Part shown: one piece after another, positions 1 to 11,721 of the stretch
How positions within the stretch are numbered: position 1 is the stretch's first letter
Layout of the letters: each line of letters starts with the position of its first letter
Assembly (NCBI GenBank): GCA_945871455.1
Contig: CAMBXJ010000044.1
Coordinates: forward strand, 1 to 15,116
Reading direction: 5' to 3'
Source of the DNA: Asaia bogorensis
GTDB lineage: Bacteria; Pseudomonadota; Alphaproteobacteria; Acetobacterales; Acetobacteraceae
Length of the DNA: 15,116 nt
The notes under the pieces: generated by a model
What the model was told of the DNA's origin: nothing
Seen by the model: the letters and a program-made list of their open reading frames with translations, nothing else
Database searches by the model: none
Position numbers and translations under genes: made by a program

Positions 1-1749
1 TGGCGGCGCGGCTTCCTCGGGCCGGGTGACCGGGAGAACGGCAACCGCATCCGAGGCGGCGAGAAGCTGCTGTTCTGGAATGCCGCGGGCACCGAAATCG
101 CGCCGCAGGTCGCCAAGGGGTTTGAGCTCAGCGCCGATGGCAAGCGCACCTTGCTGTTCCTGCGCAAGGGCATGAAATGGTCGGATGGCGCGCCGTTCAC
201 CGCCGACGATTTCATGTTCTGGTATCAGGACATGTACGCGGTGAAGGACCTGGTGCCGGTGCCCGCGCCGGAAATGTCCATCAACACCAAGCCCGGGCGC
301 ATGGTGAAGGTCGACGAAACCACGGTCGCGTTTGAGTTCGACGAGCCCTATTTCCTGTTTCCGCAGATGCTGGCCGGCGATACCCAGGTGGGCGGCGGCC
401 AGTCGCGCCTGCAATCCGACGGGCGGGCGCTGGGGCTGTATGCGCCGGCGCATTACCTGAAGAAATTCCTGCCGAAATACAGCTCGCTGGACGCCCTGAA
501 CGCCGAGGCCAAAGCCGCCGGCTATGAGAACTGGGTGCAGTATTTCCGCTTCAAATCCGACTGGAGCCTGAACAAGGACGTGCCGACCCTGGCCGCCTGG
601 GCCATGGTGCAACCGGTCAACAGCCAGATCTGGCTGCTGGAGCGCAACCCCTACTATTACACGGTCGATACCGACGGCAACCAGTTGCCCTATATCGACA
701 AGGTGCAGATGACGCTTGCGGAAAACCCCGAAGTCATCAACCTGCGCGCCATCGCCGGCGAGTTCGACTACCAGGAGCGCTTCATGGACCTGGCCAAGCT
801 GCCGGTCTTCCTGGAAAACGCCGGGCGCGGCGGCTACCGGGTGATGCTGGACCCCGGGTTCAACGGCGGCGATTCGCTGCTGTTCTTCAACATGGCCTAC
901 CGCCAGGACGCCGAACTGCGCAAATGGTTCCAGAACGCCGAATTCCGGCGCGCCCTCGCCCTCGGCATCGACCGCGACCAACTCAACGAGGCCTTCTGGC
1001 TCGGCCTTGGCGTGCCAGGCAGCGCGATGCCCGCCCCCATCATTCCGGAAAGCCCCGGAGAGGATTACCGCAAGCGCTGGGCGGTGCTGGATGTGAAGAC
1101 CGCGAACGCGAAGCTGGATGCGATCGGGTTGACCAAGAAAGACTCCGAAGGGTACCGTCTGCGCACCGATAACGGCCAGCGGCTGCGCGTGCAGGTGGAC
1201 GTGCCACAGACATTGACACCGACCTGGCCGCAGCAGGTCGAGATGATCGCGCAACAATGGCGCGCCATCGGTATCCATGCCGATGCCAAGCTGTTCGAGC
1301 GGAGCCTGTTCTTCACCCGCGTCCGCAACGACGACAATCAGATGGTGATCTTCGCCAATAATGGCTCGGAGAACCTGTTCCTGTGGCCGGTGCAGACCCT
1401 GCCGATCGATCCGGTCAGTGCCTATGGCGGGGTGGCGATCGCCCGTTGGTATGCGACCGTGGGCGCGTCCGGCATCGCGCCGGAGGACCCGGCCATGCTG
1501 AAAGCATTCGAACTGCTGCGATCCGGCGGCGGTCTGCCGCAGGCGGAACGGACCCAGGTGGCGAAGGAAATCTGGAAGCTGGCGGTCGATCAGGTGTGGA
1601 CCATCGGTCTGGTCGGACAATCGCCGACCTTCATGGGCACCAGGGTCGTCAACCTGAAGCTTGGCAATGTTCCCAGCCGCGTCTGCATTTCTCAGCATTG
1701 CCGCACGCCGTGGAGCGGCCATCCGGAGCAGTGGTACTACAAGCAATAG
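1..1749 (+). CDS. ABC transporter substrate-binding protein, family 5 (5'-truncated), first of three paralogues
   Basis: The reading frame is open from the first base, so this is the C-terminal 582 residues of a protein whose start lies upstream. By analogy with the two downstream copies (about 673 residues) roughly 90 N-terminal residues, including the signal peptide, are missing. The SBP_bac_5 hallmark is present (KGMKWSDGAPFTADDF, from about base 169), followed by GGGQSRLQSDGR, LAENPEVINLRAIAGEFDY and a C-terminal RVCISQHCRTPW with two conserved cysteines. Family members are periplasmic receptors that hand peptides or other small solutes to an ABC importer. The substrate cannot be told from sequence. 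The subfamily is longer than standard DppA/OppA proteins (about 500-550 residues). The stop is followed after 30 bases by the next paralogue, indicating an operon. Confidence 0.93.
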   Translation, partial: WRRGFLGPGDRENGNRIRGGEKLLFWNAAGTEIAPQVAKGFELSADGKRTLLFLRKGMKWSDGAPFTADDFMFWYQDMYAVKDLVPVPAPEMSINTKPGRMVKVDETTVAFEFDEPYFLFPQMLAGDTQVGGGQSRLQSDGRALGLYAPAHYLKKFLPKYSSLDALNAEAKAAGYENWVQYFRFKSDWSLNKDVPTLAAWAMVQPVNSQIWLLERNPYYYTVDTDGNQLPYIDKVQMTLAENPEVINLRAIAGEFDYQERFMDLAKLPVFLENAGRGGYRVMLDPGFNGGDSLLFFNMAYRQDAELRKWFQNAEFRRALALGIDRDQLNEAFWLGLGVPGSAMPAPIIPESPGEDYRKRWAVLDVKTANAKLDAIGLTKKDSEGYRLRTDNGQRLRVQVDVPQTLTPTWPQQVEMIAQQWRAIGIHADAKLFERSLFFTRVRNDDNQMVIFANNGSENLFLWPVQTLPIDPVSAYGGVAIARWYATVGASGIAPEDPAMLKAFELLRSGGGLPQAERTQVAKEIWKLAVDQVWTIGLVGQSPTFMGTRVVNLKLGNVPSRVCISQHCRTPWSGHPEQWYYKQ

Positions 1750-1779
1750 GACCCGGACCGGCCAGGGAGGGAGCGAACG

Positions 1780-3804
1780 ATGCGTAACATCATGTTCGGA
1801 TTGACCGTCGCCTTGACGATAGCGGGTGGCGCCCATTCCGTCCGGGCCCAAAGCGCGTTCGAGCAATCCGGCCTGGTCGGCAAGCTGGAAGCGCCGACCG
1901 TGATCACCGATCCGGCGCGGATGCCGAAAAGCTTCAAGGAGGCACCGCAACTCGCGGACCTGGTGAAGGCCGGCAAGCTGCCGCCGGTCGCCGACCGGCT
2001 GGGCGCCGAACCCATGGTGATCCAGCCGTTGCGCAATATAGGAACCTATGGCGGCACCTGGCGCCGCGGCTTCCTGGGCCCGGCGGATGGAGAGAACGGC
2101 AACCGCGTCCGCGCCGGGGACAAGCTGCTGTACTGGAACGACGCCGGAACCGAAATCGCGCCTCAGGTCGCGAAGGGCTACGACCTTAGCGCCGACGGCA
2201 AGACGACCACGCTGTTCCTGCGCAAGGGCATGAAATGGTCCGACGGCGCGCCCTTCACCGCCGACGATTTCATCTTCTGGTTCAAGGAGATGTACCCGAT
2301 CAAGGACCTGATCCCGGTGCCGGTTCCCGAACTGTCGATCAAGGGCAAGCCCGGCCGGATCGTCAAGATCGACGAAACCACGATCGCGTTCGAATTCGAC
2401 GAAGCGTATTTCCTGTTCCCACGTCTGCTGGCCGGCGACACGCAGATCGGTGGCGGCCAATCCCGCCTGCAATCGGACGGGCGTTCCTTCGGCCCCTACG
2501 CGCCGGCGCATTATTTGCGGAAATACCTGCCGGCATCAAGCTCGGTCGAGGCATTGACCGCGGAAGCGAAAGCCAACGGATACGACAACTGGGTGCAGTA
2601 TTTCCGCTACCGGAGTGACTGGCGCCTGAATTCGGAAACCCCCACGCTGGCCGCATGGAAAATGGTGCAACCGATCAGGGGACAGATCTGGCTGCTGGAG
2701 CGTAACCCGTTCTATTACGTGGTCGATACCGCCGGCAATCAGTTGCCCTATATCGACAAGGTCCAGTTGACCCTGGCCGAGAACCCGGAAGTTATCAATC
2801 TGCGCGCCGTCGCCGGCGAGTATGACTATATGGAACGCTTCATCGACCTGGCGAAGCTGCCGGTGTTTCTGGAGAATGCGGATCGCGGCGGCTACCGCGT
2901 GGCGCTCGATCCCGGGTTCAACGGCAGCGATTCCATGCTGTACGTCAACATGTCCTATCGCCAGGACCCGGAAATCCGCAAATGGCTGCAAAACGTCGAT
3001 TTCCGGCGCGCTCTGTCGATGGGCATCGACCGTGGCCAGCTCAACGAGGCCTTCTGGCTGGGGCTTGGCGTCATCAGCACCTCGATCCCGTCGCCGGAAA
3101 TCCCGGAAAGCCCTGGGGAGGAATACCGGCTGCGCTGGGCCGAACTGAACGTGAAGAAGGCCAATGCGATGCTGGACGCGATCGGCCTGAGCAAGAAGGA
3201 CGGGGAAGGCTTCCGCCTGCGCACCGATAACGGCCAGCGCCTGCGGGTGCAGATCGACGTCGCCCAGACCCTGACACCGACCTGGCCGCAACAGGCCGAG
3301 ATGATCCTGCAACAGTGGAAGGCGATCGGCATCTACGCCGACACCAAGCTGTTCGAGCGCGGATTGTTCTATACCCGTATCCGCAACGACGATCACCAGT
3401 TGACGATTTTCACCAACAATGGCTCCGAGAGCCTGTTCCTGTATCCGAACCCCGTGCTGCCGGTCGATCCGATCTCCAGCCAGGGGGGCGCCGCGATCGC
3501 CAAGTGGTGGGCGTCGAACGGGGCCGCCGGGATCGCGCCGGAAGATCCCCTGCTGGTGAAGGCGTTCGACCTGCTGCGCACCGCCGGCGGCCTGCGGGAG
3601 GCCGAACGCACCAAGGTGGCGCAGGAAATCTGGAAGATGGTGGCCGATCAGGCTTGGACGATCGGCATTGTCGGCCTGTCGCCAACCTATATGGGCACCC
3701 GCGTGGTGAACAAGAAACTGGAAAATGTGCCAGGCCGGGTCTGCACGTCCCAGCACTGCCGCACGCCGTGGAGCGCCTGGCCGCAACAATGGTACTACCG
3801 GTAA
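1780..3804 (+). CDS. ABC transporter substrate-binding protein, family 5, second paralogue
   Basis: A complete 674-residue periplasmic solute receptor. The start is set by a strong ribosome binding site (AGGGAGGGAG, 1764-1773) ending six bases before the ATG. A Sec-type signal peptide is clear: MRN, then a hydrophobic stretch, likely cut after VRA at residue 23. A family-specific N-terminal segment follows (ITDPARMPKSFKEAPQLADL and KAGKLPPVADRL), then WRRGFLGPADGENGNR and the SBP_bac_5 signature KGMKWSDGAPFTADDF at about residues 149-164. The C-terminus carries RVCTSQHCRTPW, whose two cysteines recur in all three copies and may form a disulfide (inference). By eye it is highly similar to the first copy over the shared length, including long identical DNA tracts. 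Substrate unknown; no permease gene is adjacent. Confidence 0.95.
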   Translation: MRNIMFGLTVALTIAGGAHSVRAQSAFEQSGLVGKLEAPTVITDPARMPKSFKEAPQLADLVKAGKLPPVADRLGAEPMVIQPLRNIGTYGGTWRRGFLGPADGENGNRVRAGDKLLYWNDAGTEIAPQVAKGYDLSADGKTTTLFLRKGMKWSDGAPFTADDFIFWFKEMYPIKDLIPVPVPELSIKGKPGRIVKIDETTIAFEFDEAYFLFPRLLAGDTQIGGGQSRLQSDGRSFGPYAPAHYLRKYLPASSSVEALTAEAKANGYDNWVQYFRYRSDWRLNSETPTLAAWKMVQPIRGQIWLLERNPFYYVVDTAGNQLPYIDKVQLTLAENPEVINLRAVAGEYDYMERFIDLAKLPVFLENADRGGYRVALDPGFNGSDSMLYVNMSYRQDPEIRKWLQNVDFRRALSMGIDRGQLNEAFWLGLGVISTSIPSPEIPESPGEEYRLRWAELNVKKANAMLDAIGLSKKDGEGFRLRTDNGQRLRVQIDVAQTLTPTWPQQAEMILQQWKAIGIYADTKLFERGLFYTRIRNDDHQLTIFTNNGSESLFLYPNPVLPVDPISSQGGAAIAKWWASNGAAGIAPEDPLLVKAFDLLRTAGGLREAERTKVAQEIWKMVADQAWTIGIVGLSPTYMGTRVVNKKLENVPGRVCTSQHCRTPWSAWPQQWYYR

Positions 3805-3813
3805 TCATAGATG

Positions 3814-3860
3814 GCCGCACCCTTGGGAGCAGCCATTCGGAGCAGTGGTTTTGCAAATGA
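3814..3860 (+). pseudogene. Decayed 3'-end remnant of a fourth substrate-binding-protein copy
   Basis: The 43 bases 3814-3856 align without gaps to 1700-1742, the 3' end of the first receptor gene, at 34 of 43 positions by hand count. Read in the matching frame the remnant encodes RTLGSSHSEQWFCK and then a TGA, against RTPWSGHPEQWYYK in the first gene. Nothing upstream in that frame resembles the family, because the preceding bases belong to the end of the second gene in another frame. It is best read as the scar of an extra copy lost by unequal recombination. Its TGA overlaps the ATG of the third gene (ATGA, 3857-3860), and the GGAG inside it (3839-3842) is one of the few purine-rich sites available to start that gene. 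Confidence 0.7.
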
Positions 3861-5875
3861 AATACATAGCCCTTAGCCTGTCGCTGCTGCTGACCGGTGT
3901 TTCCCCAGCCGGCGCGCAAAAGAACGAATTGCGGGAAGCAGGCATCGTCGGCACGCTGGAATCGGCCACGATCATCACCGATCCGGCGCAGTTCCCGAAG
4001 AAATTCCAGGAAGCCCCCGCGCTGGCGGACCTGGTGAAGGCGGGCAAACTGCCGCCGGTCGAACAACGTCTGCCCACCGATCTGCTGGTCATCAAGCCAT
4101 TGCGGGAAATCGGCAAATACGGTGGCACCTGGCGGCGCGCCTTCCTGGGGCCGGGCGACGGCGAAAACGGCAACCGCATCCGGTCCGGCGACAAGCCGCT
4201 GTTCTGGGACGTGACCGGAACGAAACTGATGCCGCAGGTCGCCAAGGCCTACGAGATCAGCGCCGACGGCAAGCGCACCACCCTGTTCCTGCGCAAGGGC
4301 ATGAAGTGGTCGGACGGCACGCCCTTCACCGCCGACGATTTCGTCTTCTGGTATGACGATATGTATCAGAACAAGGAGATCGCTCCCTCGGCGTCCCCCA
4401 ACATGACACCGGGCGGCACACCCGGGCGCGTGGTGAAGATCGACGAAACCACCGTCGCCATCGAATTCGACGTCCCCCATTTCCTGTTCCCCGCCATGCT
4501 GGGCGGCGACACCCAGGTCGGCGGCGGCCAATCCCGCATGCAGTCCGAGGGGCTGGCCTTCGGTCTTTACGCCCCGGCGCATTACCTGAAGCAGTTCCTG
4601 CCGAAATATACGCCGGTCGAAACCTTGAACGCACAGGCCAAGGCGGCCGGTTACGCGAACTGGGTGCAGTATTTCAAGTTCAAGACCGACTGGCGGCTGA
4701 ACGTCGATCTGCCGACCATAGCCGCCTGGAAAATGACCCAACCGATCAACACGCAGACCTGGATGCTGGACCGCAACCCGTATTTCTATGAGGTCGATAC
4801 CGCTGGCAACCAGCTTCCCTATATCGATCGGGTGCAGATGTCGCTGGCGGAAAACCCCGAAGTGGTGAACCTGCGCGCCATCGCCGGCGAGTATGACGTG
4901 CAGGAACGCTTCATCGACATCGCCAAACTGCCGGTGTTCCTGGAAAATGCCGAACGTGGCAAATACAAATACCGCCTGGACCTGGGGTTCAACGGCAGCG
5001 ACTCCCAGCTTGTGTTCAACATGTCCTTCAAGGCCGACCCGGAAATCGCGAAATGGTTCGCCGTCGCCGATTTCCGGCGGGCACTGTCAATCGCCATCGA
5101 TCGCGATCAATTGAACGAGACGTTCTGGCTGGGCATCGGCACCCCGGGATCTGGCGTGCCGTCGGAAGTGGTCCCGGAAAGCCCCGGCAAGGAATGGATC
5201 GCCAAATGGTCCAACTTCGATCCCAAGAAGGCCAACGCGATGTTGGATTCAGTCGGCCTGACCAAGAAGGACCGTGAAGGCTACCGCCTGCGCACCGATA
5301 ACGGCGAGCGACTGCGCATCCAGATCGATGTTGCCCAGACGCTGAACCCAACCTGGCCGCAGCAGGTGGAAATGGTGATCCAACAATGGCGCGCCGTCGG
5401 CATCGCGGCGGACCTGAAGCTGCTGGAACGCACCCTGTTTTTCACCCGGGTCCGCAATGACCAGCATCAGGTGTCCATCTTCTCCAACAGCGGATCGGAA
5501 AGCCTCTATCTGTTTCCCACCCTGGCCCTGCCTGTCGATCCCGCCGGCAGCCTGATGGGCACGGCGTGGTCGCAATACTTCATCTCCAATGGAACCCAGG
5601 GCACCAAGCCCGACGATCCCGCCATGCTTCGGGCCTTCGACCTGATGCGCGACGCGCCGACGATGCCAGAACAGAAGCGGAATGAGATGGCGCAGGAGAT
5701 CTGGCGGCTGATCGCCGACGCGAAATGGCAGATCGGGTTGGTCGGGCAGGCCCCGGGCAGCCAGGGCAACCGCATCGTCAGCGACAAGCTGGGCAACATC
5801 CCCGCCCGTATCTGCATCTCCCAGCATTGCCGTCCGCCCTGGTCCGCTCGACCTGAGCAATGGTATTTTCGGTAG
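3857..5875 (+). CDS. ABC transporter substrate-binding protein, family 5, third paralogue
   Basis: A 672-residue periplasmic receptor. An upstream in-frame start exists, but it would lie inside the second gene. The ATG at 3857 gives a proper signal peptide (MKYIALSLSLLLTGVSPAGA, likely cleaved after residue 20), so it is chosen. The Shine-Dalgarno is poor: GGAG at 3839-3842 lies 14 bases upstream, inside the duplication remnant. The same domain order is seen as in the second copy: ITDPAQFPKKFQEAPALADL, GTWRRAFLGPGDGENGNR, KGMKWSDGTPFTADDF, LAENPEVVNLRAIAGEYD, and C-terminal RICISQHCRPPW with the paired cysteines. It is the most diverged of the three, with differences around the region after the signature (QNKEIAPSASPNMTPGG) and near 5500-5620, which may alter ligand range (inference). 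Last gene of the apparent operon. Confidence 0.95.
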   Translation: MKYIALSLSLLLTGVSPAGAQKNELREAGIVGTLESATIITDPAQFPKKFQEAPALADLVKAGKLPPVEQRLPTDLLVIKPLREIGKYGGTWRRAFLGPGDGENGNRIRSGDKPLFWDVTGTKLMPQVAKAYEISADGKRTTLFLRKGMKWSDGTPFTADDFVFWYDDMYQNKEIAPSASPNMTPGGTPGRVVKIDETTVAIEFDVPHFLFPAMLGGDTQVGGGQSRMQSEGLAFGLYAPAHYLKQFLPKYTPVETLNAQAKAAGYANWVQYFKFKTDWRLNVDLPTIAAWKMTQPINTQTWMLDRNPYFYEVDTAGNQLPYIDRVQMSLAENPEVVNLRAIAGEYDVQERFIDIAKLPVFLENAERGKYKYRLDLGFNGSDSQLVFNMSFKADPEIAKWFAVADFRRALSIAIDRDQLNETFWLGIGTPGSGVPSEVVPESPGKEWIAKWSNFDPKKANAMLDSVGLTKKDREGYRLRTDNGERLRIQIDVAQTLNPTWPQQVEMVIQQWRAVGIAADLKLLERTLFFTRVRNDQHQVSIFSNSGSESLYLFPTLALPVDPAGSLMGTAWSQYFISNGTQGTKPDDPAMLRAFDLMRDAPTMPEQKRNEMAQEIWRLIADAKWQIGLVGQAPGSQGNRIVSDKLGNIPARICISQHCRPPWSARPEQWYFR

Positions 5876-9590: not shown

Positions 9591-11003
9591 ATGACCCAAG
9601 GCCCGACCACGATCCGCACCCGTTTTGCCCCCAGCCCGACCGGCCTGCTGCATATCGGCGGCGCCCGCACCGCGCTGTTCAACTATCTGTACAGCCGTCA
9701 TCACGGCGGCGCCTTCCTGTTGCGGGTCGAAGACACCGACCGGGAGCGCAGCACCGATGCCGCGACCCAGGTCATTCTGGAAGGGCTCGACTGGCTTGGC
9801 CTGACCCGGGACGAACAGACCGTGTTCCAGTCCACCCGCGCCGAACGCCATGCACAGGTCGCCCATCAGCTCCTCGAATCCGGCAAGGCCTATCGCTGCT
9901 GGTGTTCGGCCGAGGAACTGCGACAGATGCGCGAACAGGCCGTCGCGGAAGGTCGCTCTCCTCGCTATGACGGGCGCTGGCGGGATCGCGACCCGGCCGA
10001 GGCGCCCGAAGGCGTGAAACCGTCGATCCGGCTGAAAGCCCCGCGGGATGGCGAAACGGTGGTCGAGGACCTGGTGCAAGGCACCGTCCGCGTCGCCAAC
10101 GCCGAAATGGACGACATGATCATCCTGCGCGGGGACGGCACGCCGACCTATCTGCATGCGGTCGTGGTGGACGACCACGACATGGGGATCACGCATGTTA
10201 TCCGCGGCGACGACCATCTGACCAACACGTTCCGCCAGGTGCAGATTTTTCAGGCCATGGGCTGGGATCAGCCTCGGTTCGCGCATATTCCCCTGATCCA
10301 CGGCGCGGACGGCGCGAAACTGTCGAAACGGCACGGCGCCGTTTCGGTGCTGGAATTCCGGGAGCAGGGGTTCCTGCCCGAAGCCGTCTGCAACTACCTG
10401 CTGCGGCTGGGCTGGTCGCATGGGGATCTGGAAGTGGTGGACCACGACGAGGCCATCCGCCTGTTCGACATCGCAGACGTGAACCGGGGCGCGTCCCGGA
10501 TGGACTATGCCAAGCTGACCAACCTGAACGGCATCTATATTCGCAAGGCCGACGATGACCGCCTGACGCGGGACGTGCTGCAACGCCTGGCCCACCAACC
10601 GCATCTGTCGCTGGGCAGCATCGCCGCCGGCCGCATTCGCGCGCTGATGCCGCAGTTGAAGGAACGCGCGAAGACCCTGGTCGAACTGGCCAACGCCGCC
10701 GCTTTCCTGGCGCGCGTGGTGCCCTTGCCGATGGAACCCAAGGCTGCGGCGCAACTCACGGCCGAGGCAAAGCTGCTGCTGCGCGACGTGGGTGCGGCCC
10801 TGGCCGAGACGGATTTTTCGGTCGCGGCCATCGACGCGGCGTTGCGTGGGTTTGCGGAGGCGACCGGGCGCAAATTGGGGCAGGTGGCCCAGCCGCTGCG
10901 CGCCGCTTTGACCGGCAGCACCGTCAGCCCTGGCATCGACGCCACAATCGCGGCACTGGGCCGAGAGGAAGCGTTGGCGCGGATTTTTGCCGCATCGCGG
11001 TAA
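9591..11003 (+). CDS. gltX: Glutamyl-tRNA synthetase
   Basis: A 470-residue class I aminoacyl-tRNA synthetase that charges tRNA-Glu (and in many bacteria tRNA-Gln, later amidated). The N-terminus carries [20 protein letters not shown], the HIGH-class motif at residues 21-24, and the KMSKS-class motif is GAKLSKRHG at about residues 241-249. [13 protein letters not shown] is also typical of GltX. The C-terminal third is the anticodon-binding region, and the length is normal. Cys103 and Cys105 ([10 protein letters not shown]) remain from the zinc-binding insert, but the partner cysteine expected about 25 residues later is replaced in the segment [13 protein letters not shown], so a zinc site is probably absent. 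The start is the only ATG close to the motif; no convincing Shine-Dalgarno precedes it. A 3' non-coding unit with FNR box and terminator follows. Confidence 0.97.
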
Positions 11004-11016
11004 AAATTTCGTCCTT

Positions 11017-11030
11017 TTGATTCAGATCAA
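11017..11030 (+). promoter_or_regulatory. FNR/Anr/FixK-type binding site
   Basis: TTGATTCAGATCAA is an exact match to the FNR-family consensus TTGAT-N4-ATCAA. It starts 13 bases after the gltX stop. A regulator bound here as a class II activator (centre at -41.5) would place the transcription start at about 11065, the base before the first hairpin of the RNA described below. The predicted -10 for that start is CATGTT (11053-11058), three of six consensus bases, which is what activator-dependent promoters often show. Confidence 0.65.
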
Positions 11031-11064
11031 TGGAGATTGCCGCGTTTGACGGCATGTTTCCTTT

Positions 11065-11147
11065 CGAGGCGCCAAGGCCCCGCCCTTGGCCTCTCTCTTG
11101 GACTCCTCCCCAAACTTGGCGATGCCCACAAGGCATCGCCTTTTTCT
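11065..11147 (+). ncRNA. Predicted small RNA, about 83 nt, anaerobically regulated, with anti-Shine-Dalgarno loop
   Basis: Three consecutive hairpins fill the space between the FNR-box promoter and a T-run. Hairpin 1 (11066-11093) has ten base pairs with a two-base bulge and loop CCCCGC. Hairpin 2 (11098-11113) has a four-pair stem UUGG/CCAA and exposes the loop ACUCCUCC, complementary to GGAGG ribosome binding sites. Hairpin 3 (11118-11140) is a perfect nine-pair stem followed by TTTTT, an intrinsic terminator. No ORF with a ribosome binding site is present. Alphaproteobacteria are known to have trans-acting RNAs presenting CCUCC-type loops (for example the CcsR RNAs of Rhodobacter), and FNR-activated small RNAs are known in other bacteria (FnrS). 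Both parts together suggest a translation-repressing RNA made under low oxygen. The alternative is a 3' untranslated region and terminator of gltX, possibly processed. Confidence 0.55.
11118..11145 (+). terminator. Intrinsic terminator downstream of gltX and the predicted small RNA
   Basis: GGCGATGCC (11118-11126) pairs perfectly with GGCATCGCC (11132-11140) across the loop CACAA, and is followed at once by TTTTTC. It is the strongest rho-independent terminator in the window. It ends 115-142 bases after the gltX stop, so it can serve read-through from gltX as well as the small RNA. Confidence 0.9.
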
Positions 11148-11238
11148 TGTACGGGGCAAAAACATGAACCGGCGTTTACGAAATTTGAACCAATAGGGGG
11201 GTAGTCGAGGGTTGCTGAAGGACAGGAGTGCGCAAAAA

Positions 11239-11721
11239 ATGCGAGCGAAGGACCAAGGGTCGAGTGGGTCGGTGATCGCTCCGCTGGTCGGCTTAAGCGT
11301 GGGATTGCTGGCTTTGGGCGGGTCCATCGAGATCGCGCGGATGGCCGAACAGCTTGGCCCCAAGGTTGGCGACCAGGTGGCATTTGGCCTGGATACCCGG
11401 TCCCAGATCGTCAGCAAGGAGATATTGGCCGTTGCACGGGCCGATGGGTCGGCATGCAGGCTGGATATCGCTCTGATGCAGAAGTCCGGCGGCAGTCTGA
11501 TCGTGGAGGAGCGCGGTCCTGGTTCTCCGCGACTTTACCGGGTCCATTGGTCGGGGCGCGCGACCGCCGCGGACGGCGGGAACTGTGGTTCGGCGGTGGA
11601 TTTGCGGTTGAACGATGGGCAGCTCGCGACCTTGGCGGAGGCCGCGGGCGGCTACGGCCTGACCCGCCGGCGCCTGGTGCTGTCGACGCCTTGGGCGACA
11701 GCCGGGGCGTCCGTCCCCTGA
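11239..11721 (+). CDS. Hypothetical protein with one N-terminal membrane segment
   Basis: A 160-residue protein of unknown family. The ATG at 11239 is used because AGGAG (11224-11228) lies ten bases upstream; an in-frame TTG at 11212 would place that site inside the gene. After a short polar start (MRAKDQGSSGS) comes a hydrophobic stretch VIAPLVGLSVGLLALGGSIE at about residues 12-31, then a soluble part with two cysteines (SACRLDIA and GNCGSAVDL). It may be an inner-membrane anchored periplasmic domain or a signal-anchor protein. Codon use is like its neighbours. It stands alone, between a terminator and the convergent ArsR-type gene, 44 bases from the latter's stop. No function is proposed. 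Confidence 0.7.
   Translation: MRAKDQGSSGSVIAPLVGLSVGLLALGGSIEIARMAEQLGPKVGDQVAFGLDTRSQIVSKEILAVARADGSACRLDIALMQKSGGSLIVEERGPGSPRLYRVHWSGRATAADGGNCGSAVDLRLNDGQLATLAEAAGGYGLTRRRLVLSTPWATAGASVP

Follow-up and report, generated by a model that had tools for sequence, protein, structure and literature searches.

In the window (the whole stretch of 15,116 nucleotides of Asaia bogorensis DNA that was analyzed), an FNR-type box, several hairpins and a T-run follow one another behind gltX. Do these elements form an oxygen-responsive RNA gene, as an earlier note made from the sequence alone had proposed, and to what kind of RNA would that gene give rise? Our answer is that the locus most likely specifies a stand-alone small RNA of about 83 nt, a paralogue of the alphaproteobacterial aR8 RNAs, which would be transcribed from an FNR class II promoter at low oxygen and would repress mRNAs through the loop ACUCCUCC.

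Promoter and anatomy of the RNA gene

The gene anatomy and the promoter architecture are evident in the nucleotide sequence. The FNR/FixK-type box TTGATTCAGATCAA occupies positions 11017 to 11030 of the forward strand (center, 11023.5), as seen in a pattern scan and in the comparison of loci. It is the perfect TTGAT-N4-ATCAA sequence that had been described and the only one in the window; when up to two mismatches are tolerated, four boxes turn up, which does not exceed chance (mean, 3.12). Nine perfect boxes are present in the 4.06-Mb genome to which the window belongs, versus none in a reversed control. Other perfect boxes of this genome lie before fnr (L140, G000:C381), before the gene for a CBS/BON-domain protein (L138, C210), and inside a frame leading into a metal P-type ATPase (L133, C46).

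In FNR class II promoters the box is centered at -41.5. When the box centre is put at this position, the predicted transcription start is C11065 on the forward strand, and the -10-like hexamer CATGTT (11053 to 11058, forward strand) sits precisely at -12 to -7, so that the window contains both the box at a predicted -41.5 and the -10 element of a class II promoter. The minimum free energy fold of 11065 to 11147 consists of three hairpins (-37.3 kcal/mol, z = -5.3) and is matched in stability by 0 of 200 shuffled sequences. The 5' hairpin 1 (11066 to 11095, forward strand) abuts the predicted start, a coincidence that the earlier note had pointed out. The core CTTGGACTCCTCCCCAAACTTGGCG (11097 to 11121, forward strand) contains hairpin 2 (11098 to 11113), whose loop ACUCCUCC (11102 to 11109) is an altered aR8 seed. 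The intrinsic terminator (11118 to 11147, forward strand) is made of a 9-bp stem (11118 to 11140) and a U-tract; both the middle hairpin and the terminator with its T-run, which the earlier note had described, are present. A scan of the window returned five terminator-like sites, including that of the RNA, and shuffled sequences average 3.6, so that the terminator scan alone proves little.

Conservation and spread

The segment from 11004 to 11160 was compared by BLAST with 98 genomes, its own included, at a threshold of E 1e-6. Matches were found in 20 genomes, 18 of which belong to the same genus (33 genomes, own included) and carry the core; in the two others (G047, E 4.7e-10, and G053), the match is a canonical aR8 copy and not the altered core. 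The absence of the RNA from 15 genomes of the genus is taken from BLAST, and for G008, G010, G013, and G029 from further searches as well; diverged copies might escape. Among 397 genomes of the family, 12 from 2 of 102 genera contain the 14-mer CTTGGACTCCTCCC. In the second genus, the box and the core are present at three loci (two in G123 and one in G200), with the same distance between hexamer and box as in the genus of the window, which gives 21 loci in total over two genera. Two candidate loci were dropped: L148 (G008), a chance match to the 14-mer without box or hairpin surroundings, and L032 (G023:C334), which is near-identical to L031 and meets the contig edge before the box. A search for the box together with TCCTCCC in 385 genomes of the class yielded nine loci beyond the window, one of which (L225) was judged by eye to be an aR8 copy and eight were not. 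A plasmid search for the RNA returned no match. The exact core is present on 18 public contigs, all from MAGs, labeled as Acetobacteraceae (14), Rhodospirillales (2), Asaia bogorensis (1), and Nitrosovibrio (1); the last label is presumably a mislabel.

The distance from the box to the sequence TCGAG is exactly 33 nt in all 18 loci of the genus, which bears out the suspicion that the arrangement of box and hairpin is beyond chance. The TCGAG sequence itself differs by one or two letters in three of these loci (TTGAG, CTGAG, and CCGAA). The spacer between the box and the -10 hexamer is near-random in the 18 loci, while CA(N)3T at -12 to -7 is conserved (C and A in 18/18, the last T in 16/18). 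Because TTGA and TCAA within the box, as well as parts of the core, were preset in the pattern that defined the loci, the letter conservation of box and core is to some extent built in; that every locus has a box, and at a constant spacing, is not. The core is identical in 17 of the 18 loci and carries one substitution in the remaining one; the loci were selected by the core, and a looser pattern applied to the loci fetched by BLAST yields the same core.

The three-hairpin fold is retained in 20 of the 21 transcripts (all 18 of the genus and two of the three of the second genus); the G123b transcript of the second genus folds differently upstream of the terminator. The proposal that box, spacing and hairpins would persist in relatives has therefore held, with the box present at the three loci of the second genus as well. 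Hairpin 1 varies in sequence and length, and has its first pair at transcript nucleotide 2 in 20 of the 21 folds; in two of these 20, that pair stands isolated. At most 8 of 200 shuffled sequences fold as well as hairpin 1 in 18 of the 21 loci, and 11, 12, and 25 do so in the others, in which hairpin 1 is no better than shuffles at the 5% level. RNAalifold recovers little of hairpin 1 because the MAFFT alignment is poor there, and single folds were used instead. Compensatory double changes keep the pairing at 4 of the 9 pairs of the terminator stem; hairpin 2 is invariant across the loci and thus receives no support from covariation.

The FNR regulator

The genome of the window encodes, at 1627 to 2319 of contig C381, a CRP/FNR protein with a CxxCx7C motif, a fourth cysteine, and the recognition helix ETVSR, which we take to be the marks of a four-cysteine FNR, the regulator that a class II promoter of this type calls for. 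A TTGATCCAGATCAA site is located 212 nt upstream of the longer start reading of this fnr gene. A close orthologue (E 6.1e-104 or better) is encoded in 16 of the 33 genomes of the genus, and the RNA is present in all 16; the cysteine pattern is present in 15 of these orthologues, L169 having been left out of the reading. In G021 and G027 the RNA is present and a close FNR was not found; in G008 and G024 the four-cysteine FNR is only 59 to 60% identical and the RNA was not found; in 13 of the 33 genomes neither the RNA nor such an FNR was found. Four-cysteine FNR is consequently encoded in 16 of the 18 RNA-bearing genomes and in 2 of the 15 others (table 16, 2, 2, 13; Fisher p 1.7e-5, kinship ignored), an association that may reflect a clade split within the genus.

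FixK and FNR can recognize the same box, and the genome of the window contains, on C13, a response regulator beside a CRP-type protein without N-terminal cysteines, which are read as FixJ and FixK. The same small RNA could accordingly be controlled by FixK (via FixLJ) instead of, or besides, the four-cysteine FNR. G021 would suit such control, since it has the RNA and the box, yet its sole FNR match (E 5e-26) spans residues 45 to 211 only and its cysteines are unreadable. We nevertheless regard control by FixK as rather unlikely, because no copy of the RNA turned up in the 10 genomes in which the best FNR match, as read, has no cysteine cluster; these account for 10 of the 11 best matches from other genomes, the eleventh being that of G021 (L184). 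Control by the four-cysteine FNR is thus the reading that we follow below.

Relation to the aR8 family

The earlier note recognized no named family in the RNA, which no longer stands. A permissive Rfam scan detects RF00519 (suhB/MmgR, aR8) at positions 11088 to 11155 of the forward strand with a sub-threshold score of 32.7 bits (E 3.3e-5; cut-off, 41). In a larger search, 15 of the 20 further loci score between 27.6 and 36.2 bits for this family, with E values from 8e-4 to 0.13; the other five have no RF00519 match at E 0.5. At curated cut-offs, Rfam gave no match to any family in the window and no RF00519 match in the 20 further loci, all of which remain below the gathering cut-off of 41 bits. 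The 10-mer seed UUUCCUCCCU of the family is replaced by ACUCCUCCCC in the window, and the 20 other loci, which were selected by that seed, also read ACUCCUCCCC. Compared with the canonical CUUGGACGUUUCCUCCCUAAACUUGG, the sequence CUUGGACUCCUCCCCAAACUUGG found here is the seed without three nucleotides (GUU), followed by a change of U to C. The remaining hallmarks of aR8 are present, i.e., a weak hairpin, a C/U-rich stretch flanked by CUUGG...AAACUUGG, and a Rho-independent terminator. These flanks are common to the canonical aR8 copy of the same genome (L126); loci of the second genus have AUACCCUCGG on the right side. By its sequence, the RNA is a diverged relative of RF00519/aR8; it is classed as an aR8-derived variant rather than a standard member because it falls below the RF00519 cut-off and lacks the 10-mer.

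A canonical aR8 copy above the cut-off is present in 71 of the 98 genomes, including one on contig C208 of the genome of the window. A box lies within 120 nt of all 15 altered-seed copies, versus 1 of 51 canonical copies (deduplicated); the count is restricted to copies whose terminator stem is perfect over at least 7 pairs, which is why it includes 15 altered-seed copies and not 21, and the one canonical copy with a box (L225) was itself retrieved by searching for box and seed, so that the unbiased canonical count is 0 of 50. L225 belongs to another alphaproteobacterial family and is a canonical-seed aR8 copy with TTGATATTTATCAA located 90 nt upstream, which is possibly an independent link to FNR or chance. 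A third aR8-like seed, GUUUCCCCCC, was observed in six copies in the genus (L034 to L038 and L129), with comparable flanks, a terminator, and no box. At least three types of aR8 seed are therefore found within one genus.

The RNA shares with the known aR8 RNAs (RF00519 suhB/MmgR, SisA-D of Caulobacter, and MmgR of S. meliloti) the CUUGGAC...UCCUCCC.AAACUUGG core, the weak hairpin, and the terminator and, as far as the excerpts of PMC12559287, PMC8401924, and PMC7143759 describe, an anti-Shine-Dalgarno seed and the occurrence of several paralogues in many genera. It differs from them in the change of seed, in the 5' hairpin and the promoter of the FNR class II type that it adds, and in its scores of 27.6 to 36.2 bits in the 16 matching loci against a cut-off of 41. 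In the excerpted text of PMC12559287, SisA-D share the 10-mer UUUCCUCCCU, which is anti-Shine-Dalgarno in character, and have no common promoter motif; in that of PMC8401924 and PMC7143759, MmgR limits polyhydroxybutyrate and its gene is under NtrC and AniA.

Proposed action and targets

The anatomy described above suggests the following course. At low oxygen, FNR would bind 11017 to 11030 and bring RNA polymerase to the start at 11065, and transcription would end at the gene's own terminator, which would release an RNA of about 83 nt. The exposed loop ACUCCUCC would then pair with the Shine-Dalgarno regions of target mRNAs and block their translation, probably with the assistance of Hfq. We infer each of these steps (transcription, oxygen response, Hfq use, repression, and targets) from sequence.

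The 18 RNA-bearing genomes contain the 10-mer loop complement GGGGAGGAGT near ATG 41 times, including two sites that are simply antisense to the RNA, and the 15 RNA-less genomes contain it 25 times. For the 9-mer GGGAGGAGT, the counts are 51 sites, again including 2 antisense to the RNA, in 10 RNA-bearing genomes and 48 sites in 10 RNA-less genomes. Per megabase and without the self-antisense sites, RNA-bearing and RNA-less genomes have 0.41 versus 0.28 sites for the 10-mer and 0.91 versus 0.77 for the 9-mer, a slight nominal excess. Among 30 complement loci that were read (L186 to L215), 18 are the start of clpX (one identified by Pfam), 9 in genomes with the RNA and 9 in genomes without it; the remaining recurrent complement sites either fall within longer frames or gave no clear assignment. 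The clpX gene carries the long conserved ribosome-binding site GGGGAGGAGT genus-wide, whether the RNA is present or absent. Since the complement is equally present in RNA-less genomes, it is best read as a strong ribosome-binding site, and clpX is a candidate target at most. A calculation of the duplex between clpX and the RNA gave an implausible pairing over the entire RNA and was discarded.

These counts, from which no set of mRNA targets emerged, would also suit an RNA that acts on other RNAs, as a sponge, as a decoy, or as the prey of a CrfA-like sponge, and excerpts of PMC12559287 describe the pairing of the Caulobacter aR8 RNAs with the sponge CrfA via the same seed. The same excerpts present SisA itself as a repressor of mRNAs, which acts at their 5' UTRs through the 10-mer seed with Hfq, and we consider an action on RNAs other than mRNAs improbable compared with the mRNA repression proposed here.

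Genomic context

The upstream neighbor of the RNA is gltX (9591 to 11003, forward strand), which encodes glutamyl-tRNA synthetase (PF00749, E 5.7e-93; PF19269, E 1e-29). The expected position downstream of gltX recurs widely: gltX precedes the RNA in 18 of the 21 loci, i.e., in the window and in 17 of the 20 further loci, as read from the C terminus and, in L003 and L142, identified by Pfam. Behind the RNA lies an ORF of 169 amino acids (11212 to 11721, forward strand; ORF comparison) with no Pfam match. In the second genus (L141), the ORF behind the RNA is 42% identical to it, and the order gltX-RNA-ORF is thus kept there; the genes downstream of the RNA vary from genome to genome. At the other end of the window, three large ORFs stand in a row (151 to 5875). 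The first and second are 75% identical across 530 amino acids, and the second and third are family 5 solute-binding proteins; by their sequences, the three are tandem copies of the binding protein of a peptide-type transporter.

With the box only 13 nt past the gltX stop codon and the terminator near this gene, the hairpins might be nothing more than the terminator or 3' untranslated region of gltX, with the box idle or serving the downstream gene. That reading accords poorly with three loci (L009, L013, and L019) in which the RNA stands behind a luciferase-like monooxygenase gene (twice) or an HpaB-like gene (once) with box and spacing intact; in addition, the core is conserved far beyond the needs of a terminator, and a terminator separates the box from the next gene, the identity of which differs between genomes. 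We judge it quite improbable and retain the stand-alone RNA gene.

The claim that the segment contains no ORF very nearly holds: no ORF of at least 20 amino acids lies wholly inside 11065 to 11147, but the segment is overlapped by sense frames of 36, 45, and 55 amino acids and, on the opposite strand, by frames of 70 to 131 amino acids. A short protein-coding or dual-function gene, to which the overlapping sense frames would lend themselves, is scarcely credible, since the frames of 45 and 55 amino acids begin ahead of the predicted transcript, that of 36 amino acids (start TTG at 11086) extends beyond the terminator, and the stretch ahead of the core measures 26 to 38 nt in the various loci, with length differences that are not always divisible by three.

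Comparison with known small RNAs and implications

FnrS of E. coli is not known to be related to aR8, and the Rfam scans of the window gave no FnrS match. The likeness is one of function, since FnrS is described in the excerpted text of PMC8139620 as an FNR-activated small RNA that represses oxygen-dispensable functions, and the RNA of the window is predicted to act alike. In Rhodobacter sphaeroides, the FnrL-bound RSs0019 and RSs2461, as well as PcrZ, are alphaproteobacterial small RNAs linked to FNR-type regulators (PMC4263372 and PMC8139620, excerpts); they are likened to the present RNA by description only, and the excerpts state no relation to aR8. The CcsR RNAs (RF02791) have a comparable CCUCCUCCC motif, and one locus (L009) matches them weakly; the match of 26.1 bits is far below the cut-off of 65.3. 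Small RNAs linked to FNR and aR8 RNAs are thus each already known, and in the excerpts returned by a search of the open-licence literature we found no aR8 RNA under FNR and none with the seed described here.

Standard annotation would miss the RNA, as all 21 loci stay below the curated RF00519 cut-off. The change of seed is accompanied by a change of promoter, which can be traced between species. A tentative extension, to which we give slightly less than even weight, is that aR8 is a modular set in which the paralogues carry different seeds and each answers to its own signal, and of which one paralogue was reseeded and captured by FNR in these bacteria; it would then be a counterpart of FnrS on an unrelated chassis with its own private targets. 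The widespread alphaproteobacterial aR8 family, hitherto tied to carbon and nitrogen status, would in this RNA gain a link to oxygen.
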